Below, piece after piece: positions 1 through 26,188 of a stretch of 27,943 nt of DNA (the stretch's first letter is position 1; each line of letters opens with the position of its first letter). Position numbers and translations under genes: made by a program. The stretch lies in IMG/VR virus record IMGVR_UViG_3300005531_000247, positions 1-27,943 of that record, one strand, 5' to 3'. This DNA comes from a virus. The notes beneath the pieces were generated by a model. The model ran no database searches. It was not told the DNA's origin and saw nothing but the letters and a program-made list of their open reading frames with translations.

Positions 1-1233
1 TCACCGGCAGCTCCATCCTAAAACCGTTCCGGGATGGAGCACAATGAAATGGCAGCGAACGGCCAACAGTGTCTTAACTGGTTGTCTCACGAAACGGGGC
101 AGGCGCATAGAGAGGGGCGCCCCCGCTTGGAGCATCATCGCGGCCGCTGAGTGGCGGAGTAGATGGGCACCGCGCGCAGGCGCATCATCGATGCCGGCGC
201 GGACCAAAGCCCGACGAACGATCTTGCCAACTGCGTTCCAACGAAAAAACGGGCGGCACGGTGCTTTCGCACGCAAGAAGACCTTTGTGATGGGGACATC
301 AGGGCGCGCCTCAGTCATGTATCTCAATAGTGCATCGCCGACGTCCTGCGGCAAAGGGAGCGTCGCCTCTCGGCGCCCCTTTCCACAAACGCGCAGCGTT
401 CCATGCTGCCAGTCGATGTCTTCGATGCGCAGCATATTAACGTCTCCCGCTCGAAGGCCAAGCCGTGCGAGCAGGAGCAGGATCGCCCGGTCGCGAATGC
501 CAGCCGGGGTTGTCGTGTCGCACGAGTTGATCAACTGTTCTACTTTCTTTGCGGGAAGGAATTTGGGGATGTTCGAATACTTCGAGTGGCACACGCTTGG
601 CACGGCCTGAACCAACGATGGCGGGCATTGACCTTGTGTGATCAAAAACCGCAAATAGGACCGCAACGCGGTCACATAATGCTTCACATCGACGGAACTC
701 CTGCGCTGGGACTCGGCGATGATCACACCGCGCACTCGCGCGGCATCATATTTGCGAGGATCGGGGCCGAGCAGAGGCAGAAGCTGCTTCATAACGTGGC
801 GGTATCCGGGGATGGTTCCTTCTGATACTCCTCGGTGCTGCCTCAGCCAATCCAGATAGATGTGAAGGTGGTCATCATCGGGTGGAGGCGCCGGCAAGTG
901 AATGACCTGGGCTTGCTCCAGAAAACGGACGAACTTCCGAGCACCAGCAATCGAAGGCGCACTTATAATCTGGGACGCTCGGTATCCCGGGCACTTGCAT
1001 CGATGCGCTGCAAACTTTTTGATCACGTCGTCATTGACCTCAGCGACCGCGATATTGGCCTGATTGAGCCAGTAGCAGAAATGCCTGGCAATATGCCCGA
1101 AATAGCCGAGCGTGCGCTCCGGGTAGCCCTGAGATTCGAGATGTTTGAAATACGATTCACACAGAGGCCGCAACGCGCCGGGATCGAGGACCCACCGCTT
1201 CGGCCGCACCACTACAGACGTTGAAGTAGACAT
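1..1233 (-). CDS. Tyrosine recombinase/integrase, C-terminus lost
   Basis: Site-specific tyrosine recombinase that would cut and rejoin DNA through a covalent 3'-phosphotyrosine. The ATG at 1233 is preferred over 1266 because a GGAG lies 7 bases upstream; it gives 410 residues. An N-terminal SAM-like core-binding domain fills roughly residues 20-220. The catalytic domain shows the first Arg in LGLRAGD (about residue 261), Lys in CGKGR (about 285) and HLLR (about 357-360). After GAPLSM (about residue 376) the last 34 residues no longer resemble the family. The second His/Trp and the nucleophilic Tyr are absent, so the protein should be inactive. It is transcribed away from the phage genes. An HRCKCP segment near residue 80 recalls stand-alone or trio recombinases rather than classic phage integrases, so it may belong to a separate element. 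Family sure; ownership unsure. Confidence 0.82.
   Translation of the reverse strand: MSTSTSVVVRPKRWVLDPGALRPLCESYFKHLESQGYPERTLGYFGHIARHFCYWLNQANIAVAEVNDDVIKKFAAHRCKCPGYRASQIISAPSIAGARKFVRFLEQAQVIHLPAPPPDDDHLHIYLDWLRQHRGVSEGTIPGYRHVMKQLLPLLGPDPRKYDAARVRGVIIAESQRRSSVDVKHYVTALRSYLRFLITQGQCPPSLVQAVPSVCHSKYSNIPKFLPAKKVEQLINSCDTTTPAGIRDRAILLLLARLGLRAGDVNMLRIEDIDWQHGTLRVCGKGRREATLPLPQDVGDALLRYMTEARPDVPITKVFLRAKAPCRPFFRWNAVGKIVRRALVRAGIDDAPARGAHLLRHSAAAMMLQAGAPLSMRLPRFVRQPVKTLLAVRCHFIVLHPGTVLGWSCR
10..40. repeat. 9-bp inverted repeat in the integrase 3' end
   Basis: GCTCCATCC at 10-18 is repeated inverted as GGATGGAGC at 32-40, with a 13-base spacer. It lies in the part of the integrase reading frame that has lost family similarity. 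There is no T-run, so it is a poor terminator. It could be part of the end of an insertion sequence or a recombination site. Confidence 0.5.
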
Positions 1234-1246
1234 GAAGATTCTCCAT

Positions 1247-1265
1247 TGATGCCAGGTAGGCATCA
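1247..1265. promoter_or_regulatory. 7-bp palindrome upstream of the integrase start
   Basis: TGATGCC, 5-base spacer AGGTA, GGCATCA: a perfect inverted repeat 13 bases upstream of the chosen integrase ATG. The position suits an operator for an autoregulator or excisionase-like protein, or a small mRNA hairpin near the ribosome binding site. No convincing -35/-10 pair was found, so the function is inferred only from position and symmetry. Confidence 0.35.
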
Positions 1266-1363
1266 TGGATATCGAATCATCATGCAGTGTCTGGATTATG
1301 CAAAGTGCGACTCACCGTTTTTGGCTGCTACCGGCTGGCGGAACCCGCCGACTCCACATAATC

Positions 1364-2093: not shown

Positions 2094-2230
2094 GATTCCG
2101 GCTGCGCATAAAGAAGAACGGCATCGAGCTCGAGCTGGAGCAGGCGAACGATTAGACCCTCGCTGGCGTTAAGGAACTGGTCCAGCACGTCATCCGGGAG
2201 ATCGCGATTCTGGAGCGGGAACCGAAGTGA
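2090..2230 (+). pseudogene. 46-codon mini-gene split by an in-frame TAG
   Basis: The first part (2090-2155) encodes 21 residues starting MRFRLRIKKNG and ends at TAG 2153-2155. The same frame then continues for 24 sense codons (TLAGVKELVQHVIREIAILE...) to TGA at 2228-2230, which overlaps the portal GTG as GTGA. The start overlaps the upstream stop as ATGA. Both junctions are typical of coupled phage genes, and the part after the TAG reads like real amphipathic helix. The simplest view is one ancestral 46-codon gene with a nonsense mutation. Amber suppression, readthrough or a base error are alternatives. Function unknown. Confidence 0.6.
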
Positions 2231-3906
2231 ACCTTCTCGATAAAGCCATAAGCGTCGTATCGCCAAGCACGGCATTGCAGCGTGTGAGGAGCCGGGTGGC
2301 ACTGGAACTGACCACGGGCTACCTGGGGCGGCACGCGCAACGCTTCCGCTATGAGGGCGCCAGTGCGGGCCGCCGCTCCAACGGCTGGTATGCCGCTTCG
2401 ACGGACGCCAACGTTGAGCTGATGGGCTCGCTCATCTGGCTTCGCAACCGCGGCCGCGAGCTCGTCCGCAACAATCCGTATGCTGCTCGGGCCATCGAAG
2501 AGTTGGCCGGCAACGTGGTCGGGACCGGAATTGTGCCGAAAGCTAAGACGGGCAACACCGGTATCGACAAAATCATCGATGATGAGTGGCCCTTCTTTGC
2601 CGAGGCCTGCGATACGCCCCAGCGCCTCGACTTCTACGGGATGCAGACGCTGACCGTCCGCACCATGGCCGAGAGCGGAGAATCCATCGTGCGGTTCCGG
2701 CCGCAGCCGGCGGATTTTGGCTTGCGGGTTCCGCTTCAGCTTCAGATGCTCGAAGCGGATTTTCTGGACCAGGCCCGCACCATGGGCCTCGTGAATGGCC
2801 ACGTGATGGAGGGCGTGCAGTTCGACGAGAAGGGCCGGCGCGTCGCGTACTGGCTCTTCAGCTATCACCCCGGCGGCGTCCTGATCTTGAATCCGCGCGG
2901 CGGAATCGTGAGCCAGCCGGTTCCGGCGGACCAGATCATGCACATCTACCGCGTGCTCCGGCCTGGCCAGGTCCGCGGCGTGCCGTGGCTCGCGCCCGTG
3001 ATGATGGCCCTCCGCGACCTTGATGATTACTGCGACGCGGAGCGCGTCCGGAAGAAGATTGAGGCCTGTGTCACCGCGTTCGTCGAGCAGCCCGAAGGTA
3101 TAGACGGCGATCCGCTGGGGCTGGCCAGCACAGATCCATCCACCGGGCTTCCGGTGGAGAATTTCGAGCCGGGAATGGTCGAGTACCTAAAGCCCGGCCA
3201 GACGGTGAAATTCAACAATCCTCCGGCGGCGGGCGGCTACCGCGAATACAAGATGACGGAGCTGCAGGGGATCATGGCAGGAATCGGCCTGCCTTACGAA
3301 CTCGGCACCGGCGATATGTCGCAGGTGAATTACTCCTCCTGGCGCGGCGGCATGCTCGGTTTCCGCAATACCGTGGAGGCCTACCGCTGGCTCACCCTCA
3401 TCCCGCTCTTCTGCATGCCCGTGTGGCGGCGCTTCATTGACACGCTGATTTTACAGGGCAAAATCCCGCAATCGATCCTGAAGGACGACAAGGTCAACCT
3501 GCGGACGGTACAGTGGACCGCGCCACGGTTTGAGTCCGTCGATCCGGTGAAGGACGCCGAGGGCGTGCTGAAGGACGTCCGCATGGGCCGCAAGACTTGG
3601 TTCGAGGCGGTGCTGGAGAACGGCTACGATCCCACGACGCAGCTTGAGCAGATTGCGCTCTTCAACAAGCTGGTGGATAAGTTCCAAATCGTTCTCGATT
3701 CCGACCCGCGCAACACCACGTTGCGCGGCCAGGCGCAGCCGGCGGCGAATGCAGATCCCGCGCTGGGCGGCAAGGCGGCGACAGCCAAATCCAAACCGGC
3801 CGCGCTCTCCCAGGAGGACCTCGGGATGGTCGGCGAATTACTGGCCGCCGGCATGTCGCGCGTGCACAACAGCTTTGAATCCACGACCCGGATCTACCGG
3901 GGATAG
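2227..3906 (+). CDS. Phage portal protein, lambda gpB type
   Basis: Forms the dodecameric ring at the capsid vertex through which DNA enters and leaves and on which the head assembles. 559 residues, the usual size for the lambda portal family. Family signatures: NPYAARAIEELAGNVVGTGI near residues 83-102, VLRPGQVRGVPWLAP near 244-258 and YSSWRGGMLGFRN near 369-381. The start is a GTG overlapping the upstream TGA as GTGA, so it depends on coupled translation. The last 60 residues are Ala/Pro/Lys-rich and probably flexible. In lambda the protease follows directly; here a ferritin-like gene sits between. Confidence 0.95.
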   Translation: MNLLDKAISVVSPSTALQRVRSRVALELTTGYLGRHAQRFRYEGASAGRRSNGWYAASTDANVELMGSLIWLRNRGRELVRNNPYAARAIEELAGNVVGTGIVPKAKTGNTGIDKIIDDEWPFFAEACDTPQRLDFYGMQTLTVRTMAESGESIVRFRPQPADFGLRVPLQLQMLEADFLDQARTMGLVNGHVMEGVQFDEKGRRVAYWLFSYHPGGVLILNPRGGIVSQPVPADQIMHIYRVLRPGQVRGVPWLAPVMMALRDLDDYCDAERVRKKIEACVTAFVEQPEGIDGDPLGLASTDPSTGLPVENFEPGMVEYLKPGQTVKFNNPPAAGGYREYKMTELQGIMAGIGLPYELGTGDMSQVNYSSWRGGMLGFRNTVEAYRWLTLIPLFCMPVWRRFIDTLILQGKIPQSILKDDKVNLRTVQWTAPRFESVDPVKDAEGVLKDVRMGRKTWFEAVLENGYDPTTQLEQIALFNKLVDKFQIVLDSDPRNTTLRGQAQPAANADPALGGKAATAKSKPAALSQEDLGMVGELLAAGMSRVHNSFESTTRIYRG

Positions 3907-3941
3907 CAGTCCACGAATCCACATCACAAGGAGAAAGTTCC

Positions 3942-4427
3942 ATGAAAGCACCGCCACAGGTATTGGCTGCGCTCCAGGAAAGCATCGATGTCGAGGCAAC
4001 CTTGGCGCTCCAATACCTTCTCGACCAGCGCGACGTGAAGCGCCTCGGCCTCGATCTTGCCGACGGCTTGAAGCAGATGCACGAGCAGTGCCAGGAGCAT
4101 CTGAAGCACCTCACGAGCCGGCTTCTGTTCCTGGAAGGCGCGCCCACAATCGCCCCCAAGCCCGCCGCCACGCACGACAGCGTCACCGAGATCCTGAACG
4201 ACGCGTTCGCGGCCGAACAGGCGGCCGTTGCACGCTTCAACGAGCTGTGCAAGGTGTGCTACGAGACCGGCGACATGTCGAACTTCCACTTCTACCAGCA
4301 CCTGGTGAAGTGGCATCGCGAGGGCGACGACAAGTTCAAAGGCCACGTGGCGTGGCTCCAGAAACAGCTCTATCAACTGAAGAAACTCGGCGAAAACGAC
4401 TTCATCGCCGTGAACGCGGCGAAATAG
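3942..4427 (+). CDS. Bacterioferritin-like (ferritin superfamily) protein
   Basis: 161 residues, close to the 158 of bacterioferritin, and alignable by eye along the whole four-helix bundle: VEATLALQY matches the helix A ligand region, LLFLEGAP the helix B end, AAEQAAVARFNEL helix C and GHVAWLQ helix D. Matches to ferroxidase positions are E18, Y25, H53, E92 and H135. The glutamates of the two ExxH motifs appear replaced by C50 and F132, and the haem Met by Gln, so iron oxidation may be weakened. A strong AAGGAG lies 8 bases before the ATG. It sits between portal and protease/capsid genes and would be expressed with virion proteins. It could be a packaged metal-binding or DNA-protecting protein, or an assembly helper. 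Family likely, function open. Confidence 0.75.
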   Translation: MKAPPQVLAALQESIDVEATLALQYLLDQRDVKRLGLDLADGLKQMHEQCQEHLKHLTSRLLFLEGAPTIAPKPAATHDSVTEILNDAFAAEQAAVARFNELCKVCYETGDMSNFHFYQHLVKWHREGDDKFKGHVAWLQKQLYQLKKLGENDFIAVNAAK

Positions 4428-4440
4428 GAGAGGCGAATCG

Positions 4441-6705
4441 ATGCCACTGCTCAAAACCGAATACCTGCACCGGGATACCGGCGCGCCGCCGCCCCCGAAT
4501 CCCAATTCGGAAGTCTTTTCCGCCGACGCCCAGGTCCTGCCGAGTACGGCCAACGCGAAGGACGGCACCATCGACGTGGTCTGGTACAGCGGCGCTTATG
4601 TCCCCCGCGTGGACCGTTCCACGGGCGAGCCGTACATGCTGAGGCTCGATATGTCCGGCTGCCGGTTCGACCGGCTCAACAACGGCGCGCCCGTCTTCGA
4701 CACGCACTTCACCGGCGACGATTTCAAATCGCTCATCGCCGGGAAGGTGGGCACGCGCGCCCAGGTGGGCGTCGTCCGCCGTGCCTGGCCCAATGGCGAT
4801 AAAGGCATGGCCACGCTGCAGTTCGATCTCGGCGACGAAGACGGCGCCGAGATGTTCCGCAAGTCCTCGGCCGGCATCCTCCAGAACTTGAGCTTCGGTA
4901 CCTTCGTGTATAAACGCGAAAAGGTCGATGCACAGGTGGAGGGATTGCCCGAAGGCAAGCCGCCGTACATCAATGACAAGGAAATCGGCATGTTCAAGGC
5001 GACCGACTGGGAGCCGTTCGAAATCTCTCCCTGCACCGTGCCCGCCGATTTCAATACGTGTTTCTTGAGCGCCCAGCCCACGGGCGAGGTCACGATCTTC
5101 GGCACGCCGGAGCCCGGCGTGATCGATGCATTACGGGCAATCAGCCCACACAAGGAGAATCCTGCCATGCCGGAAACGACGCAGGGAGCGGGCGCGGATG
5201 CCCGTCGAGTGAACGAACAGGCCCTGACCGCCGCGCGCGAAGAGGCGGTCAGGGCCGAACGGCAGCGTGTCAACGAGATTGAATCGCTGGGCGCTACCGC
5301 AACGAAATACGGGATCGACGGCGCCGTCATCAGCGAGTTCATCGCGAAGGGCGTCTCTGTCGATCAGGCCCGGAAAGAGATCTTCGATCGCCTGGCCAAA
5401 AAGGGCACGCTGAACGTCCACGGCGACGAGTTCGTCACCCGGTCCGAAGGCGGTGCATCGGTGACGCGCGATGGCCTCGAGCAGCGCCTCGCGTGCATGC
5501 AGATGGCCATGCTGCTGCGCACCGACGGGCGGTTCTTCCTGTCGCGCCGCAAGGATCATAACGGCAACGATCTCGGCGAATACCTCCGCGGCTGTGGTCC
5601 GGAGGCACAGCAGCGCGCCGAGGACATGGGGCGCGAGTACCGCCATTTCAAACTCATCGATATGGCGAAGGAATACCTCGAGCTCAGGGGCGCCCCCGTG
5701 CGCGGCATGGACGTGACGCGGATCGCAGAGTTGGCGCTCCAGGGGCCCTCGCGCGGGCCGGAGTTCTTCGCGGGCGGCGCCGAATCGACGTCGGATTTTC
5801 CGGCGATCGTGGCCAATGTCGCCAACAAGACCCTGCGCCAGAGCTATGAAGCTTACCCGCGCACCTTCCAGCCGTTCTGCCGGCAGGTCACGGCGCAGGA
5901 CTTCAAGCCCATTAACCGGGTGCTCCTGGCCGACGCTCCCGCCTTGCCCCAGTTGAACGAAAAGGGCGAGTTCACTCACATCCAGTTGACCGACAACAAC
6001 ATCAGCTACGCTCTGGCGACGTTCGGCGGCCTCGTGGCCCTGACCCGCAAGGTCATCATCAACGATGACCTCCAGGCCTTCACGCGTGTTCCGGCGGTGC
6101 TGGGCGTGGCCGCCGCGCAGCGCGAATCGAACACGGTTTGGGGCATCATCACTTCGAACCCAGCGGCGGTGTATGCGGGCGACAAAGCGTCCACCGCGCT
6201 TTTCCACGCCAATCACGCCAACCTGCTGACCGGCGCCGGGAGCAGCATCGATCCCAACGTGAATGCGACCGAAGCCGCGCTGCAGAAGGCTTACGGCCAA
6301 GCGCGCGCCGCGTTGCGGTCCCAGAAGGGTCCGCAGGGCACGCCGCTGAACCTCATTCCGCGCTTCATCGCGGTGCCGACGGCGCTTGAAATGTACATGC
6401 TCCAGCGCGTGTACCCGATCAACCTCGCGGCCTCGTCCGCCACCGCCGTGGTGCCGGAGTGGGTCCGCAGCCTGGTGCCGGTGGTCGAGCCGCGTCTCGA
6501 TGCCAACAGCACGACCGCATGGTACTTCATCGCAGACCCCGCGCAGATCGACACGATCGAGTACTGCTATCTCGAAGGCCAGCAGGGCGTGTACATCGAG
6601 ACCAAGCAGGGCTTCGAGATCGACGGCGTCGAGATCAAGGCTCGCATGGACTTCGGCGCGGCCGCCATCGATTACCGCGGCCTCCAGAAAAACGCTGGCC
6701 AATAA
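4441..6705 (+). CDS. Prohead protease-major capsid protein fusion
   Basis: 754 residues joining three usually separate jobs. Residues 1 to about 215 are an HK97-type prohead serine protease (clan SH): likely His89 in VFDTHF, Ser151 in LQNLSFG and Glu194 in WEPFEIS, followed by the usual P-A-D/N motif. Residues 243 to about 325 are Ala/Glu/Arg-rich coiled coil, as expected of a scaffold or delta domain. About 440-754 is the major capsid protein (gpT-like/HK97-fold). Such fusions are known in phages. AGGAGAGG overlaps the upstream stop and drives the first ATG. A second site before Met243 could make capsid protein alone. The protease is expected to trim the scaffold during maturation. A strong hairpin follows the stop. 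Confidence 0.9.
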   Translation: MPLLKTEYLHRDTGAPPPPNPNSEVFSADAQVLPSTANAKDGTIDVVWYSGAYVPRVDRSTGEPYMLRLDMSGCRFDRLNNGAPVFDTHFTGDDFKSLIAGKVGTRAQVGVVRRAWPNGDKGMATLQFDLGDEDGAEMFRKSSAGILQNLSFGTFVYKREKVDAQVEGLPEGKPPYINDKEIGMFKATDWEPFEISPCTVPADFNTCFLSAQPTGEVTIFGTPEPGVIDALRAISPHKENPAMPETTQGAGADARRVNEQALTAAREEAVRAERQRVNEIESLGATATKYGIDGAVISEFIAKGVSVDQARKEIFDRLAKKGTLNVHGDEFVTRSEGGASVTRDGLEQRLACMQMAMLLRTDGRFFLSRRKDHNGNDLGEYLRGCGPEAQQRAEDMGREYRHFKLIDMAKEYLELRGAPVRGMDVTRIAELALQGPSRGPEFFAGGAESTSDFPAIVANVANKTLRQSYEAYPRTFQPFCRQVTAQDFKPINRVLLADAPALPQLNEKGEFTHIQLTDNNISYALATFGGLVALTRKVIINDDLQAFTRVPAVLGVAAAQRESNTVWGIITSNPAAVYAGDKASTALFHANHANLLTGAGSSIDPNVNATEAALQKAYGQARAALRSQKGPQGTPLNLIPRFIAVPTALEMYMLQRVYPINLAASSATAVVPEWVRSLVPVVEPRLDANSTTAWYFIADPAQIDTIEYCYLEGQQGVYIETKQGFEIDGVEIKARMDFGAAAIDYRGLQKNAGQ
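5152..5169 (+). promoter_or_regulatory. Internal ribosome binding site and in-frame ATG
   Basis: AAGGAG at 5152-5157 stands 9 bases before ATG 5167-5169, which is Met243 of the protease-capsid fusion. The site sits at the end of the protease domain, where the linker reads PHKENPAMPE. Use of this start would give a 512-residue scaffold-plus-capsid protein without protease. It equally looks like the relic of an intergenic region that became coding when two genes fused. Confidence 0.6.
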
Positions 6706-6736
6706 ATCGCGGCCGACGCAGCGAAACCACAACAGA

Positions 6737-6760
6737 CCGGGGCGGCGCGAGCCGCTCCGG
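6737..6760 (+). other. 10-bp GC hairpin with GCGA loop after the capsid gene
   Basis: CCGGGGCGGC at 6737-6746 pairs with GCCGCTCCGG at 6751-6760 (one G-U pair), closed by a GCGA tetraloop of the stable GNRA class. It lies in the 75-base gap between the capsid stop and the decoration gene, 7 bases before that gene's AGGAG. No T-run follows. It could protect the 3' end of capsid mRNA or set the protein ratio. Confidence 0.6.
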
Positions 6761-6780
6761 ATCAAACAGGAGACGATTCA

Positions 6781-7575
6781 ATGCAGAATTACATTCAACG
6801 AGGCAATACCGTCACCGTCGCCGCGCCTTATGCTCTCGTGAGCGGCCAGGGCTGCCAGGTGGGCAACATCTTCGGCGTGGCCGTCAACAACCAGAATCTG
6901 GGCGATTCAACCGAGCTCGTGGTCGAAGGCGTGTTCGATCTCGCGAAAGACGGGAGCACGTTCAACTCCGGCGACAAGGTCTACTGGAACAACTCGACCC
7001 AGCAGGCCACGTCCAGCACCTTGACGGCGGCCGGCGGTTCCAACAAGGAAATCGGCTTTGCGGTGCTGAATACGCCGAGCGGCGTGAACGCGCCTGGCGG
7101 CCAGGCGGCCGATCCAACCGTCCGCGTGCGGCTGAACCCACTCAGCTTCGGCCCGGTGCAGGCAGGCGATACCGATCCGTCACTCATCCAGAAAGCGGTA
7201 GTGACGCTGACGGCCGCGCAGATCATGGCAATGTACGGTGCGCCCGTCAGCATCCTCCCGGCGCCGGCAGCGGGCCAGGTGCTCGTGATCGACCAGATCA
7301 TCGCGCAGATGAAACCCGGCGGCACCCAGTTTACCGGCGGGGGCGTGGTGACATTCCAGTATCACGGGACCGCCGTCGTGCCGCACTCGGGGAATATTCC
7401 GGTCGCAACCATCACCAGTGCGGCCGCCAGCGAAAACGTGGTTCCGCCGCCCACGGGAACGATCCAACCTCCCGCCGCGACCGGCCTCGACATCACCAAC
7501 GCCACGGCCGCGTTTGCGACCGGCAACGGCACGCTGGTGGTGACGGTGTTCTACTCCATCATCACATTGAGTTAA
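6781..7575 (+). CDS. DUF2190-like capsid decoration protein with C-terminal extension
   Basis: Residues 1 to about 120 resemble the DUF2190 (capsid cement/decoration) family: MQNYIQRGNTVTVAAPYALVSGQGCQVG, an EGVFDLAKDGSTFNSGDKVYW core and IGFAVLNTPSGVN. Such proteins bind the outer surface of the capsid lattice and strengthen it against internal DNA pressure. The family is usually little over 100 residues; here a further 140 residues follow, rich in beta-type sequence, Pro, Ala and Gly, with no family recognised. That part may be a second capsid-binding or surface-displayed domain. AGGAG lies 8 bases before the ATG. Position directly after the capsid gene matches lambda gpD-like placement. 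Confidence 0.8.
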   Translation: MQNYIQRGNTVTVAAPYALVSGQGCQVGNIFGVAVNNQNLGDSTELVVEGVFDLAKDGSTFNSGDKVYWNNSTQQATSSTLTAAGGSNKEIGFAVLNTPSGVNAPGGQAADPTVRVRLNPLSFGPVQAGDTDPSLIQKAVVTLTAAQIMAMYGAPVSILPAPAAGQVLVIDQIIAQMKPGGTQFTGGGVVTFQYHGTAVVPHSGNIPVATITSAAASENVVPPPTGTIQPPAATGLDITNATAAFATGNGTLVVTVFYSIITLS

Positions 7576-10845: not shown

Positions 10846-11334
10846 CTACTGCTTTCGGCCGGAGGTGGGAACTTTCTTTAACACTTCGGCCGCTGCTTGT
10901 TTGACGTAACGGTTGGCCAGGGCTGCCGGGGCCCCCATCTGTCTTTGTACGGTTCTCCCAATTTCCGTGTCGGCCAGTTTCTGGTCCTCGGTTTCAGCCA
11001 ACCGCTCCCTTTCGGCCTGGACCGCTTTACGGATGATCTCCTTGCCAGCGCCGGTGGGCTCACCGTCGCTGGTGGCAAGCGCCTTCCGCCTGGCCTTGCC
11101 GAGAACAGGGTAGGCTCGGCCCCAAACGTCATCCAGCGAGCGTTCTCCGAATGCCTGAAGTTCCAGTTTGCCGTCATCCGTCAAGGTGAAATCTACCATG
11201 AAGTGTTGAACCTGCCGAACCTCCGCAAGATCGGCGTTGTCCCACTCGTCCAGCATGACAATGGCGTCCTCTTTATTTCGAGCGGAAACGAATGACAGGT
11301 CGCCGTTCGGCCAGCGGCACATAAAGACGGGCAT
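10846..11334 (-). CDS. Reverse-strand hypothetical protein inside the tail operon
   Basis: 162 residues, opposite to all neighbours. The N-terminal half (MPVFMCRWPNGDLSFVSARNKEDAIVMLDEWDNADLAEV onward) is a compact alpha/beta module with a WPNGD hairpin. I have an impression of similar stand-alone hypothetical proteins in environmental bacteria, but no function. The C-terminal half is a charged helix (RKAVQAERERLAETEDQKLADTE) ending in a basic tail. Its stop faces the tail chaperone stop at 24 bases. There is no clear ribosome site; ATG at 11334 or the Met four codons later could be used. Looks like a cargo (moron) gene with its own control, possibly made in the lysogen. Confidence 0.6.
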   Translation of the reverse strand: MPVFMCRWPNGDLSFVSARNKEDAIVMLDEWDNADLAEVRQVQHFMVDFTLTDDGKLELQAFGERSLDDVWGRAYPVLGKARRKALATSDGEPTGAGKEIIRKAVQAERERLAETEDQKLADTEIGRTVQRQMGAPAALANRYVKQAAAEVLKKVPTSGRKQ

Positions 11335-16647: not shown

Positions 16648-17187
16648 ATGTCCTCGCAATCAGAAGAACTGTGGCGGGATATACCAGGGTTCCCGGATTA
16701 TTATGCCTCCACGCTGGGGCGAATCAAGAGTCGTCCTGGGGGCCGCCGCAAGGGCGGCATTCTCAAACCTTACGCCCATCCAGGAACCGGGTATATGCAG
16801 CTCAATCTATATCGAGACGGCGTGGCATATCCTCGGATGATTCATTTCCTCGTGGCGATCACTTTTCTGGGGCCACGACCGTCACGCATGGAGATCAATC
16901 ACAAGAACGGAGACAAACACGATAATGAACTCGACAATCTGGAATACGTAACGGGCATCGAGAACCGGAGGCACGCATGCCGCCTCGGTCTATGCCATGG
17001 GCGACCAAAACTCACGAGAGAGATGGTTGAGCTGATCCGGTGTCTCTACCGAACTGGCGCTTACACTCAGCGGCAACTCGCCCGTCAGTTCCAAGTACGT
17101 CAACAGACTATCAGCAAAATCGTGACTGGCAAGAGGTGGCCTGAGCAAAGGTGGCCTGAGCAAAAGCCAGCAATCTTCGCAGTGTAG
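16648..17187 (+). CDS. HNH homing endonuclease (NUMOD4-HNH-HTH)
   Basis: 179 residues in three parts: an N-terminal NUMOD4-like DNA-binding module (ELWRDIPGFPDYYASTLGRIKS), an HNH_3 nuclease core (MEINHKNGDKHDNELDNLEYVT, with the metal-binding His and Asn visible) and a C-terminal helix-turn-helix (YTQRQLARQFQVRQQTISKIVTGKRW). Free-standing enzymes of this kind cut phage alleles that lack them and spread by repair. It interrupts the tail-tip genes and its base composition is less GC-rich than its neighbours, both signs of recent arrival. The C-terminus contains RWPEQ twice from a 15-base tandem duplication. It is likely active, as no key residue seems missing. Confidence 0.88.
   Translation: MSSQSEELWRDIPGFPDYYASTLGRIKSRPGGRRKGGILKPYAHPGTGYMQLNLYRDGVAYPRMIHFLVAITFLGPRPSRMEINHKNGDKHDNELDNLEYVTGIENRRHACRLGLCHGRPKLTREMVELIRCLYRTGAYTQRQLARQFQVRQQTISKIVTGKRWPEQRWPEQKPAIFAV
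17134..17163 (+). repeat. 15-bp tandem duplication in the homing endonuclease
   Basis: AGGTGGCCTGAGCAA occurs twice in a row, at 17134-17148 and 17149-17163. The unit is a multiple of three and adds RWPEQ a second time near the C-terminus. The identity of both copies suggests a recent slip event. Confidence 0.9.
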
Positions 17188-21379: not shown

Positions 21380-22264
21380 TCAATGGCCGCCAGGCACATG
21401 ATAGAACCTCGCGGCGAAGGCAGGCTTCTTTTTGAGAAAGACCTTCACGGCCCGCTCCAGATTTCCAACCTCCACGAAGACTGCGGCCACTGACGACAGC
21501 GTGAATATCGGATCTTCCCGCATTGCGCGGCGCAACGCGGCGGGCACACCGGCGGAGTCCATTCTGTGCTTGAGGTTCCATGCGGCCTTATACACCACCG
21601 GTTGCTTCTCCCTAAGCGATGCCTTCGTCCAGCGGCGCTTCGGCCGGCGGGGAAGATCGGCGAAGAGTTGCACTGTTTGGCTGAAGCTCCGTGAGGCGAT
21701 TCTCCGATTGCTGCTCGAGAAGCCGGTCTGGTCCAGGATTTCGGCCCATGCCTTACCCGTTGCTGCCACCAGCTTGCGCTGCAAAGCCTGCTTCGTTATG
21801 ACGGGCTCCTCGCCGTATTGGCTGGATAGCGGAAACGTTCCGGGACAGCGAAGGCTTAGCGGTAACGGGATTCTGTCGGTACTGTGCATCCCGTTATCGT
21901 GCAGGCCTTCCGCGCCAACGATATCCGCAGTCTCCGAGATGATCTGCCGCAGGCGGGCTTTCACCCGCCCCTTGTCCAGCCGGGAACGTAAGTGGACGTC
22001 CGGGTCGATTCCAGCTTCGATAAAGCTCTCCCGCAAACGGCCTTTTTGAAGCCGCATTCGATCGGCCCCCGAAAGTTCGGCCGCCAAATAGTGAACGAAT
22101 GTTCCACGCGATCCGGTTCTGTGCCACTTGTGGAACTTCGATGCGAGCTGAGAGGCAAATCCGGATGACGGCGCCATGTTGCTGGCGGCGAGATCGACGC
22201 CGGTCCACCAGAGAGAACGCGGCGGCGCGATTCTCGCAGCGAGGATTCCCATTGTATCTGCCAT
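21380..22264 (-). CDS. Reverse-strand orphan protein of 294 residues
   Basis: No family recognised. The protein is basic and helical, with repeated Arg/Lys-rich stretches (KGRVKARLRQIISETADIV; LPRRPKRRWTKASLREK) and a compact C-terminal helix (FVEVGNLERAVKVFLKKKPAF). No signal peptide or membrane span. It faces the hub gene stop-to-stop and starts 45 bases from the fibre gene start in divergent orientation, so it must have its own promoter in that short gap or inside the fibre gene. Placement between hub and fibre, opposite orientation and DNA/RNA-binding-like charge fit a lysogenic cargo gene. The forward frames opposite it are poor, which supports it being the real gene. Confidence 0.55.
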   Translation of the reverse strand: MADTMGILAARIAPPRSLWWTGVDLAASNMAPSSGFASQLASKFHKWHRTGSRGTFVHYLAAELSGADRMRLQKGRLRESFIEAGIDPDVHLRSRLDKGRVKARLRQIISETADIVGAEGLHDNGMHSTDRIPLPLSLRCPGTFPLSSQYGEEPVITKQALQRKLVAATGKAWAEILDQTGFSSSNRRIASRSFSQTVQLFADLPRRPKRRWTKASLREKQPVVYKAAWNLKHRMDSAGVPAALRRAMREDPIFTLSSVAAVFVEVGNLERAVKVFLKKKPAFAARFYHVPGGH

Positions 22265-22309: not shown

Positions 22310-25300
22310 ATGGACCAGCTTCTTAAACTCCAGCCCCACCGCACGCTCCATTTGCAAGGCTCGGATGGTTTCGGAGCCGCGGCCGCGCTCTGGGGCGCAT
22401 CGGACGTCGGCTTCAACGTATCCGGCGTCTTCCGCGACCAGGGTGATTTCGCGGTGCTGGTCCTCTTCCAGAAGGACGACCCCTTCGGCCATCCGCGATT
22501 TTCATATCTGCCCGATGGCAATTCCTCCGGCCTGAAGCTCGACTTCGATATCGTGTTTCAGGGCATCCAGGCGTTCGAATCGAAGAAGTGGCCCTGGATC
22601 GATTGGGCGTATCTGAACGCCCACGACGCCAGTGGCAATCTGCTTCAGAAGCGGCTCAGCGAATTGGCGACCGGGCCGTCCGGGCGCACCGGTGCTTCGG
22701 GCACCTTCACGCTGAACGTGGGCACGCCGGTCGCCGGCGACCGCGTCACGCTCTGGTATCAGAACCGCGCTTATGATTACAGCGTCACCTCCGGCAGCGG
22801 CGGTAGTTCCTGCGTGCAGGATATCTGGTGGGAGCCGGCCACAACCTCGTGCGAGCAGGATATCTGGTGGCAGAGCGCGAGCACGTCCTGCGTGCAGGCT
22901 ATGTGGTGGCAGGGTGACCACGAGTCCTGCGTCCAGGCGATGTGGTGGCAGGGCAACGCGAACTACACGCATTACGTTCAGATCCAGTCCCAATCACACG
23001 GCTGGAACCACATCTATGGCGTTCAGGAGGATGGTCTCAATAGCGCCGGAATCGCGCAGAACATCGCCGCACAGATCAACTCGACCGATCCGTACTGCGG
23101 CGCGACTGTGGGCGGCGCGTACGGCAACGAGATCACGGTCTTCCTGAAGACGCTCATTCCGCTGAACGATGTGGTCGTGTCGAGTTCGGATGGCTCCGGT
23201 TCCGCGACCCTGAGCATGTACGTCCACTGGGTCGAGATCGGATCTAACAAGTATCAGGCCGCCGAGGACGGCATGAACAGTGCGCAGGTCGCGCAGGCAA
23301 TCGCCGGGCAGATCAATTCGTCGGACCCGAACTGCACAGCCACGGTTGGCGGCCAGTACAACAACGAGATCACGCTGGCGCTCAAGCCAGGCGTTGCAGA
23401 GCCGGTGTCCATCTCGAGTTCCGATGGCTCCGGGGCGGCCACTCTCAGCGACTACGTGCATTGGGTGCAGATCGGGACGGCGCGGTACTCCTGCAACCAG
23501 GGCGCGCTTTCCTCGACGCAGATCGGCGCGAACATCGCCAGCCAGATCTCGGCCAACGATCCCAATTGCACAGCCACCGCCGCGAGCAACGCGATCACTA
23601 TCTCTTTACGGAGCGGTGTGAATGGGCCGATTGCCATCTCTAGTTCGGACGGCTCCGGCCCGGCGACATTGAGCACCTATACGCATTGGGTGAAGATCGG
23701 AACCGCCACTTACTCTTGTGCGCAGGGCAGCCTCGCCGCCTCCCAGATCGCCAGCAACATCGCGAACCAGATCGTGACGAGTGATCCGAACTGCACGGCC
23801 ACGACTGGTGGCGCGCAGGGAAACGAGATCACGATCAGCCTCCGCACCGGCATTCAGGGTCCGATCCAGGTGTCTAGTTCGGACGGGTCCTCGTCGGCCA
23901 CGCTCACCGGCTTCGATGCCGCCGCCGCGTGCTCGCAGCTCACAACTCAGATCAACCAGACGGACTGGAGCCTGAACGGCCCGGTGGCGCTCTCGGCGGC
24001 CGGCTCGGGCAACCAGATCACGATCACCGCGGAACCGGGCGCCGACGGCAACATGGTCACGTTCTACGAGCTGCACGCCAGCCAGAATCTCTACTTTTCG
24101 CCGTCGTCGGTTCAGCTTGCCGGCGGATCATCGGACAACGTGCCTTGGCACATCTCGGTAGATTTCTCAGCACTGGGCTGGACGGACCTGGCGAAGCTCT
24201 GGCTGACGTTCGCGCCCGCGCTGGCCAACAGCGCCGCCTACGCGCCTACGGAATGGCAGGTGAGTGCCACGAATTGGACCGTCGCCGATCCCAATGGCGT
24301 GCGGCCGCTCAAAGTCGCCGGGCCGGGGTCCATCCGCATTGAGGAGGACAATCTTTGGGTGGTGCGCGCGGGATATTGGGAGGACCCGTCCATCGCAGAT
24401 CCCAAGGTCGCCGCATATTGGAGCCGCGGCCGGGCGATCCGTTCGGCGTACAGCCAATACGAGACGCGCACGCTCACAATCGAAATGCATTGCCAATCCC
24501 CCCACGACATTTACGTGGGCACGTGGCTGGATTGGAACTGCGGCATCATCTCGGCCGCACTGGACGGTGGCACGCCGGTCACGCTCGATTGCTACGGCTC
24601 CGGCATGCTTGTGCGGCGGCGGCTGTTCGCCAACGTTGCGCCCGGCAAGCACAGCGTAGTCCTCACGCTTACCAGCAACAAGAACGCGAACAGCGGCGGC
24701 TGGTACTTCTATTTCGATTTCCTCGAATGCGCCGTGCTATCCGATGTTCCCGGCGCGCCGGAGACGCGCACGGACATCGGGCTGGCCGCTGACTTCGACA
24801 CGGACAACACGTACAAGCTCTCGCCGCAGCGACTGATCTGGAATCTCCAGAAGCTCGGGCTGGTGGGCGAGATCGATCACTATGCGGGCGTCTTCTGGTG
24901 GAACCAGCGCAAGGTCGTGGGCGGCCATTACCCGAGCGCGACGATCACGTTCGCCGGACCCTGGCAGAACCAGGACGTGATCTGGGTTCATATTGGCAGC
25001 GGCGCCATCGGCAAGACCGTCTTCCCGGCTGACACCTCGGCGACCATCGCGGCGCACTTCGCGTACTTCATCAACGCGACGCTCGTCGGCGTGTGGTCCG
25101 AGGCGAACGGCGCGGTGTTGACGATCACGTGCCGGAGCACCGGTGCGAACTGGCAGTACTCGCTTGCGGTCGATACGAGCACAGCGCACGGGACCGCGAC
25201 GATCAACGGCAACCTGAATACGGGTGCGGCAGATCCGACGTGGGTGATCGATCCGACACAGTCGCCGGTCCTTAACCGCGCATTCCGCGACTGGCACGCG

Positions 25301-26188
25301 GACTACTTCGCGGCGCTCAAGGCGGCCGGCATCGGCGTTACGGTCTCGTTCTCGCAGGAGCTCGTGAACCCGCCTGATGACCCGGCGCATGGCTCCGTCT
25401 GGGTGCAACGGTTTCCGGATGGCACCGCCGTGCAGACCGACACGGGCTTCGCCAATCTGAAAAGCTCGATGTGCGCCTTCGGAGCGCCGGTGCAGACCTA
25501 CATGGCATCGGCGTATATCCAGATGGCGCAAATGGTGGCCGCCGCCGGGCTTCCAGCACGATTGCAATTCGGCGAAGTGCTGTGGTGGTATATCGCGGGC
25601 ACGAGCGGCATGGCGTTCTATGATGCCGACACGACTGCCGCGGCATCGACGGCTCTCGGGCGCGCGCTCACTGTATTCCACGCGGCCAATGATGACCCGG
25701 GTGTCAACGGCTTCGCCGACGCGAACTTCCTGCGTTCGCGCTTGGCTGGCTATGTGGCGGCCGTTCAGACGGCGGTGCTGGCGAGTGTGCCTGCCGCGCT
25801 GTTCGAACTACTCTGGCCCATGGATGTGAACGATCCGGATGCCTGCAGACTGCTCCACTACGTGAACCTGCCTCCGGCCTGGCAGGCGCGCTCGGGCTCC
25901 GGCTTCGACACGTTCCTTTGCGAAGGATTTCAGTACGCGGGCGTCGATCACAATCTCGATAAGGCGAAGCGCTGCGCCGCATACCCGTTCACGGAGCTGT
26001 CCTGGGATCGCGCCCACTGCCGCTACCTCATGGGCTGGTACAACGCCGGCTGGCCGTGGGCACGCGAGTGCCAGGCGGCCCAGCGCACCGCCGTGCCGCT
26101 GATCAAGTTCTGGGCATACGACCATCTATGCCTCTACGGGTGGCCGCTGCCCCTACCGAAGCAACCAAGCAGTCCTTCGTTCATTTAG
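22310..26188 (+). CDS. Tail fibre/receptor-binding protein with repeats and glycosidase-like domain
   Basis: 1292 residues. Residues 1-166: probable attachment domain. 167-218: four 13-residue repeats SC-x-Q-x-x-WW. 219-534: four beta-rich repeats of 75-85 residues, each starting Y(V/T)HWV.IG and ending SSSDGS..ATL, of the kind seen in many phage fibres. About 535-835: beta-sandwich regions, one perhaps carbohydrate-binding (RTLTIEMHCQSPHDIYVG). About 837-1292: a TIM-barrel-like glycoside hydrolase region with QFGEVLWWY (E1089), FELLWPMDVND (E1166) and CEGFQYAG (E1205). It likely binds and perhaps trims host surface polysaccharide. AAAAGG lies 12 bases before the ATG. Followed closely by the endolysin. 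Confidence 0.78.
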   Translation: MDQLLKLQPHRTLHLQGSDGFGAAAALWGASDVGFNVSGVFRDQGDFAVLVLFQKDDPFGHPRFSYLPDGNSSGLKLDFDIVFQGIQAFESKKWPWIDWAYLNAHDASGNLLQKRLSELATGPSGRTGASGTFTLNVGTPVAGDRVTLWYQNRAYDYSVTSGSGGSSCVQDIWWEPATTSCEQDIWWQSASTSCVQAMWWQGDHESCVQAMWWQGNANYTHYVQIQSQSHGWNHIYGVQEDGLNSAGIAQNIAAQINSTDPYCGATVGGAYGNEITVFLKTLIPLNDVVVSSSDGSGSATLSMYVHWVEIGSNKYQAAEDGMNSAQVAQAIAGQINSSDPNCTATVGGQYNNEITLALKPGVAEPVSISSSDGSGAATLSDYVHWVQIGTARYSCNQGALSSTQIGANIASQISANDPNCTATAASNAITISLRSGVNGPIAISSSDGSGPATLSTYTHWVKIGTATYSCAQGSLAASQIASNIANQIVTSDPNCTATTGGAQGNEITISLRTGIQGPIQVSSSDGSSSATLTGFDAAAACSQLTTQINQTDWSLNGPVALSAAGSGNQITITAEPGADGNMVTFYELHASQNLYFSPSSVQLAGGSSDNVPWHISVDFSALGWTDLAKLWLTFAPALANSAAYAPTEWQVSATNWTVADPNGVRPLKVAGPGSIRIEEDNLWVVRAGYWEDPSIADPKVAAYWSRGRAIRSAYSQYETRTLTIEMHCQSPHDIYVGTWLDWNCGIISAALDGGTPVTLDCYGSGMLVRRRLFANVAPGKHSVVLTLTSNKNANSGGWYFYFDFLECAVLSDVPGAPETRTDIGLAADFDTDNTYKLSPQRLIWNLQKLGLVGEIDHYAGVFWWNQRKVVGGHYPSATITFAGPWQNQDVIWVHIGSGAIGKTVFPADTSATIAAHFAYFINATLVGVWSEANGAVLTITCRSTGANWQYSLAVDTSTAHGTATINGNLNTGAADPTWVIDPTQSPVLNRAFRDWHADYFAALKAAGIGVTVSFSQELVNPPDDPAHGSVWVQRFPDGTAVQTDTGFANLKSSMCAFGAPVQTYMASAYIQMAQMVAAAGLPARLQFGEVLWWYIAGTSGMAFYDADTTAAASTALGRALTVFHAANDDPGVNGFADANFLRSRLAGYVAAVQTAVLASVPAALFELLWPMDVNDPDACRLLHYVNLPPAWQARSGSGFDTFLCEGFQYAGVDHNLDKAKRCAAYPFTELSWDRAHCRYLMGWYNAGWPWARECQAAQRTAVPLIKFWAYDHLCLYGWPLPLPKQPSSPSFI
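22808..22963 (+). repeat. Four tandem 39-bp repeats in the fibre gene
   Basis: Units at 22808-22846, 22847-22885, 22886-22924 and 22925-22963 each encode 13 residues with the consensus S-C-x-Q-(D/A)-(I/M)-W-W-x-x-x-x-x. Units 1-2 have DIWW, units 3-4 AMWW, suggesting pairwise duplication. Confidence 0.95.
22964..23911 (+). repeat. Four tandem 225-255-bp repeats in the fibre gene
   Basis: Units 22964-23218 (85 residues), 23219-23452 (78), 23453-23677 (75) and 23678-23911 (78). Each encodes Y-x-H-x-V-x-I, a helix with S..QIA..IA.QI, a DPNC(T)AT turn, ITISL-type strands and SSSDGS..ATL. Units 3 and 4 have an extra YSC that may pair with the DPNC cysteine. Confidence 0.93.

Follow-up and report, generated by a model that had tools for sequence, protein, structure and literature searches.

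The ferroxidase center of bacterioferritin is built from six residues, with Glu18 and His54 as terminal ligands of Fe1, Glu94 and His130 as ligands of Fe2, and Glu51 and Glu127 as bridging ligands (PMC3467274). Ferritins in phages are not new in themselves, since two cases have been published. A bacterioferritin encoded by a viral auxiliary metabolic gene is reported to be a likely functional iron-oxidizing protein of a putative Bathyarchaeia virus (PMC10904782), and gp217 of Vi01-like phages is a predicted ferritin with a proposed operon that includes a tail completion gene and with detection by mass spectrometry (PMC10892097). A further point of comparison is provided by the encapsulins, which are HK97-fold shells, probably derived from phages, that package ferritin-like proteins and whose shell gene lies next to a ferritin-like gene (PMC8346489).

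The locus discussed here lies in an IMG/VR virus record of 27,943 bases, the whole of which is called the window below. It encodes a bacterioferritin-like protein of 161 residues in the head operon. As with the viral bacterioferritin of PMC10904782, a bacterioferritin relative is found in a viral genome and under purifying selection, but the phage protein has a rebuilt site and its gene occupies a slot between portal and capsid. A predicted ferritin fold is shared with gp217, which belongs to different phages and to a tail-operon context. The adjacency of an HK97-fold shell gene and a ferritin-like gene recalls the encapsulins, which differ in being bacterial compartments rather than phages and in having cargo that carries targeting peptides. 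A search of the open literature, with subscription journals outside its scope, turned up no report of a ferritin between portal and capsid, and the literature searched holds no description of the rebuilt site, the head slot, or the phage clade. This family is a natural, monophyletic case of a viral bacterioferritin relative with a retained fold in which both bridging catalytic ligands have been replaced. Two questions can now be put to the test: what role a ferritin without a ferroxidase can have, and whether a phage head uses a ferritin-like protein as encapsulins do. The reading that fits best, which we hold tentatively, is that of an accessory metalloprotein that can be exchanged, that descends from a bacterioferritin and is produced together with the head proteins, and that is neither a mineralizing store nor a required part of the head.

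Predicted Fold and Place in the Head Operon

Several lines of analysis agree on the identity of the protein. The Pfam ferritin profile matched with 53.8 bits against a curated cut-off of 24.5, and a phmmer search matched solved bacterioferritins at 4e-9. An AlphaFold2 model built from an input of 18 phage sequences (pLDDT 92.4, pTM 0.87) has helices at residues 5-34, 39-63, 81-108, 112-126, 135-149, and 151-158, the last of which is the fifth helix of the phage ferritin; functional bacterioferritin assembles into a cage of 24 subunits. Foldseek placed bacterioferritins and close ferritins first among the PDB entries (TM 0.91-0.92, rmsd 1.2-1.4), and the five-helix subunit fold is like that of the proteins from Brucella (8sqr/3fvb), Rhodobacter (1jgc), and Blastochloris (4am2). 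L137, a locus whose protein is among the most divergent members, is also predicted to fold as a ferritin. The model thus confirms, at the level of predicted structure, the four-helix bacterioferritin fold that the original prediction had proposed to look for. Its description of a bacterioferritin-like open reading frame with a ribosome-binding site between portal and capsid genes is likewise borne out by these searches together with the profiles of the flanking genes (Table 1). A chance reading frame is further countered by the ~100 related contigs that share the slot and by a median dN/dS of ~0.13.

Viral collections offered less. A viral structure library returned only weak ferritin-like matches, and in the PHROG search the protein matched only a family of unknown function, weakly (0.0063). 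Among the structural matches are three BFVD entries from uncultured Caudovirales named 'Prohead protease' (A0A6J7WIS1, A0A6J7XDU5, and A0A6J7WPK9), which share a ferritin-like fold and are linked to the head by name. They differ in that the structural match is weak (E 0.015-0.1, ~10% identity) and the domain is part of longer proteins rather than the product of a separate gene. These entries are a possible independent tie of ferritin folds to phage heads.

The gene is encoded inside the head gene cluster, with a lambda-family portal gene upstream and a protease-capsid fusion gene followed by a cement protein gene downstream. Its place in this slot suggests that the protein is made simultaneously with the head; expression with the head genes and the oligomeric state of the protein are both points that we infer. 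A consensus-only scan near the gene, for hosts whose promoters may differ from the consensus, found one promoter-like site (0.1 expected) at 3437-3464, inside the portal gene and ~480 bases upstream of the ferritin gene. Within the capsid gene the scan picked up a single terminator-like site, which is not convincing against 1.7 expected. No RNA elements or tRNAs were found within the window.

Table 1. Features of the ferritin locus (window coordinates unless a locus is named)
Feature	Position	Strand	Basis
Portal protein, lambda family	2227..3906	+	PF05136, 1.1e-102
Ribosome-binding site AAGGAG ahead of ATG	3928..3933	+	Sequence reading
Bacterioferritin-derived phage protein, 161 aa	3942..4427	+	PF00210, 2.5e-14; AlphaFold2 pLDDT 92; Foldseek TM 0.91
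Cys50 codon, in place of bridging Glu51	4089..4091	+	Cys 62/67, Ser 4, Ala 1
Glu92 codon (equivalent to Glu94, Fe2 ligand)	4215..4217	+	Invariant, 67/67
His125 codon, in register with bridging Glu127	4314..4316	+	Invariant, 67/67; spacing 33; model helix 112-126
Loop 127-134, splitting helix D	4320..4343	+	AlphaFold2 secondary structure; length variable among relatives
His135 codon (equivalent to His130, Fe2 ligand)	4344..4346	+	Invariant, 67/67
Protease-major capsid fusion	4441..6705	+	PF25209, 2.3e-51; phrog_4523 'major head and protease', 5.4e-162
Head decoration (cement) protein	6781..7575	+	PF09956, 2.1e-17
Deletion scar, ferritin N-terminal codons	L211 ~2588-2620; L209 ~4070-4100		In-frame fusion to capsid gene

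Elsewhere in the window, an HNH/NUMOD4 homing endonuclease gene sits amid the tail genes (16648-17187), and two long open reading frames without a Pfam match run antisense to the structural operon, at 21380-22264 (-) and 10846-11334 (-). The gene at 22310-26188 codes for a large protein in which a non-contractile tail sheath TIM-barrel domain (PF23845) was recognized, and the gene contains a 39-base tandem repeat of ~3.8 copies at 22808-22954.

Changes at the Metal Site

The active site was compared residue by residue in 67 distinct phage proteins and 28 Acidobacteriota bacterioferritins. All six ferroxidase ligands and the haem ligand Met52 are present in every one of the cellular proteins. 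Among the phage proteins, neither Glu51 nor Glu127 nor Met52, which belongs to the dimer interface, occurs even once. The position of Glu51 is mostly taken by Cys. On the Fe1 side, the first ligand position holds Glu in 64 of the 67 proteins (Leu in 2, Gln in 1), and the position of His54, which is His53 in the window protein, holds His in 56 (Tyr in 5, Asp in 2, Ala in 2, and Cys and Phe in 1 each). The equivalents of both Fe2 ligands are invariant. Like bacterioferritin, the phage protein also has Gln24/Tyr25.

The fate of Glu127 is apparent from the register. Counting 33 positions on from Glu92 leads to His in all 67 phage proteins, and the same spacing separates Glu94 from Glu127 in all 28 cellular proteins; the modeled helix 112-126 runs through this His125. 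From His125 to His135 the spacing is 10 in 63 sequences and 14 or 15 in the rest, whereas the corresponding spacing in the cellular proteins is 3. Because the extra residues follow His125, it is Glu127 that became His125, and the insertion of 7-12 residues splits helix D, which is not the case in bacterioferritin. The original prediction that the glutamates of both ExxH motifs were replaced, by C50 and F132, therefore stands for C50 and for the loss of the second glutamate, but F132 is rejected as its counterpart. That assignment arose from reading the ExxH motif backwards from the GH motif across the variable loop, and F132 falls in the inserted stretch. The accompanying count was of five matching active-site positions; of the six canonical ligands, the window protein matches four (E18, H53, E92, and H135). 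The broader suggestion of a changed metal site is upheld across the whole family.

With both bridging carboxylates missing throughout, a di-iron ferroxidase is unlikely judging from the sequences. The same applies to a classical ferroxidase that would store iron or shield DNA; the original prediction had raised iron or oxidative-stress protection of packaged DNA. An active ferroxidase or iron store, of the kind put forward for viral bacterioferritins reported as metabolic genes, could appeal to the bacterioferritin fold and to the published virus-encoded example (PMC10904782), but some members lack Glu18 or His54 in addition to the bridging ligands, and we consider this reading highly improbable.

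What the site has been converted to is better approached through the residues that do not vary. The proteins of the divergent loci L137 and L226 have lost Glu18 and His54 and have kept Glu92, His125, and His135. Our best guess from the alignment is a single metal on the Fe2 side, most likely held by these three residues as a 2-His-1-carboxylate site, with Glu18, Cys50, and His53 assisting in most members. The proximity of the three residues would follow from their register with solved bacterioferritins. In this conversion the predicted subunit fold is retained, Glu51 has given way to Cys (sometimes Ser or Ala) and Glu127 to an invariant His, the haem Met is lost, and a loop separates the final two ligand positions. 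Should the one-metal site prove real, the bacterioferritin family would gain a novel kind of center.

Residues newly invariant in the phage clade include D28, R34, Q49, H78, H116, H120, H125, G128, Q140, Q145, and E151. The invariant His116, His120, and His125 set the phage proteins apart from bacterioferritin. His116 and His120 probably lie outside the former metal site; they could form an interaction surface, and they are left unexplained by the accessory-metalloprotein reading. The main rival of that reading has the ferritin fold turned to structural use within the head (as a minor capsid, core, or connector-associated protein), with internal residues that just stabilize the bundle. We regard such reuse as unlikely on balance but as a serious contender. 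On the Fe1 side, ligands have been replaced in some members by L, D, A, F, and Y, as they might be under this alternative, and the invariant R34, Q49, H78, H116, H120, Q140, and Q145 could make contacts. A purely structural role, however, needs no invariant Glu92, His125, and His135 in the former metal site.

Two further alternatives take the encapsulins as their model. In one, the protein or its metal would be ferritin-like cargo inside the virion. The abutting capsid gene, the probable phage origin of encapsulin shells (PMC8346489), and the mass-spectrometric detection of the Vi01-like protein (PMC10892097) are all consistent with this, yet the C-terminus stops soon after the last helix, the alignment contains no long cargo-loading tail, and a true ferroxidase is absent; we rate the idea as quite improbable. 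In the other, also improbable in our estimation, a one-metal 2-His-1-carboxylate (+Cys) enzyme or metal carrier would be packaged in or assembled with the HK97-type head, as a viral counterpart of ferritin-loaded encapsulins.

Relatives and Hosts

Scans of IMG/VR with three queries found 76, 97, and 99 relatives, mostly on the same contigs and amounting to ~100 contigs in all. Wherever the contig is long enough, the portal gene lies upstream and the capsid gene downstream, so the proposed search for the gene next to portals in other phages gave a positive answer. No homologue was found in the 50,697 INPHARED records of cultured phages. Three Acidobacteriota metagenome-assembled genomes (MAGs; Bryobacterales and Solibacteraceae) carry the phage ferritin. 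In one of them, the L137 phage region is bordered on both sides of its Solibacteraceae contig by bacterial genes (solute-binding protein, GDSL lipase, and radical SAM), which identifies it as an integrated prophage. The carriers are viruses of soil Acidobacteriota, namely lambda-portal tailed phages and prophages. Two side observations concern these loci. On an Acidobacteriota MAG, L136 (10001-10913) is a prophage remnant with an N-terminally cut ferritin and a broken capsid gene beside host-like genes. At window positions 1-1266 (-) there is a tyrosine recombinase gene (PF00589, 5e-23). The corresponding place in L137 is taken by a terminase gene (5110-7005 of that locus), and the recombinase gene may represent a mobile insertion or mark a contig joint.

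The phage sequences form a single clade with support of 100/100, apart from the 28 Acidobacteriota bacterioferritins. The branch between the phage and sampled cellular ferritins measures 1.68 changes per column. The cellular side of the tree consists of these Acidobacteriota proteins. The tree bears on another possible role, in which the phage subunit would join the host bacterioferritin cage and disable it or unload its iron during infection. Each of the three host MAGs has at least one further ferritin match beside the phage copy (E 1e-9 to 1e-14), which we assume to be the host's own bacterioferritin, and phage and cellular proteins have in common an N-terminal MKG(N) and an LFLEGxP loop. 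Cages that mix non-equivalent subunits have been described (PMC12120770). The long branch that separates the phage clade from the cellular proteins speaks against co-assembly of this kind, which we judge distinctly unlikely. Genes for host takeover, moreover, are not usually found in a late head operon.

Selection, Loss, and Exchange of the Gene

The ferritin gene is under strong purifying selection as estimated from the sequences, with a median dN/dS over 185 pairs of 0.126, compared with 0.093 for the portal and 0.175 for the capsid, although these values are rough because dS is high (~0.87). A strength of selection resembling that of the neighboring genes, together with the fixed position between portal and capsid, is what one might expect of a structural head part. 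The pattern of presence and absence points the other way. A portal search found 28 loci, two of them cultured outgroups, that have portal and capsid with no gene between, so the ferritin is not kept in every phage with the same portal and capsid; the locus counts (199 with and 28 without ferritin) exceed the number of independent contigs, as the searches overlap. Among 51 portal representatives at 96% identity, 38 have the ferritin and 13 do not, the contigs being metagenomic and possibly fragments. On the tree of these portals, presence and absence require six changes, at least four of which are forced by starred branches. L059, with ferritin, and L216, without it, have portals that are 94% and capsids that are 90% identical. 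In L209 and L211, which represent one lineage, the ferritin codons for NPQV(I/T)AG remain as a deletion scar in frame with the capsid gene. In the cultured relatives LPPA33 and RcBaka, the portal and capsid genes overlap. The ferritin gene is inserted between genes that adjoin in its absence, as a moron-type accessory gene would be.

Alleles are exchanged as well. The window and L137 have portals that are 91% and capsids that are 82% identical, but ferritins that are just 45% identical, and the corresponding values for L134 and L191 are 95%, 78%, and 50%. Taken together, presence and absence, the deletion scar, and the allele swaps mark the slot as a site of loss and allele exchange. The same observations weaken the proposal, present in the original prediction, that a ferritin fold serves as a general or essential capsid assembly factor, and they count against structural reuse more broadly.

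The accessory metalloprotein remains the best fit because the gene is dispensable in close relatives, is under purifying selection, and encodes three invariant residues of the old site. A phage-specific branch of bacterioferritin would then travel as an exchangeable cassette between the portal and protease-capsid genes, and its late product may bind metal or face reactive oxygen, either within the head or as the cell dies. It has the look of an optional metal-handling extra for the virus more than of a component indispensable to all heads. In 13 ferritin-less records, several of which are fragments, neither the family alignment nor PF00210 found a ferritin relocated elsewhere, and the same type of search matched 11 of 11 ferritin-bearing records as a positive control. 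In L017 (3740-5001, on the same contig as L092 and L201), an insertion of ~1.25 kb with an antisense open reading frame lies between the portal and ferritin genes.
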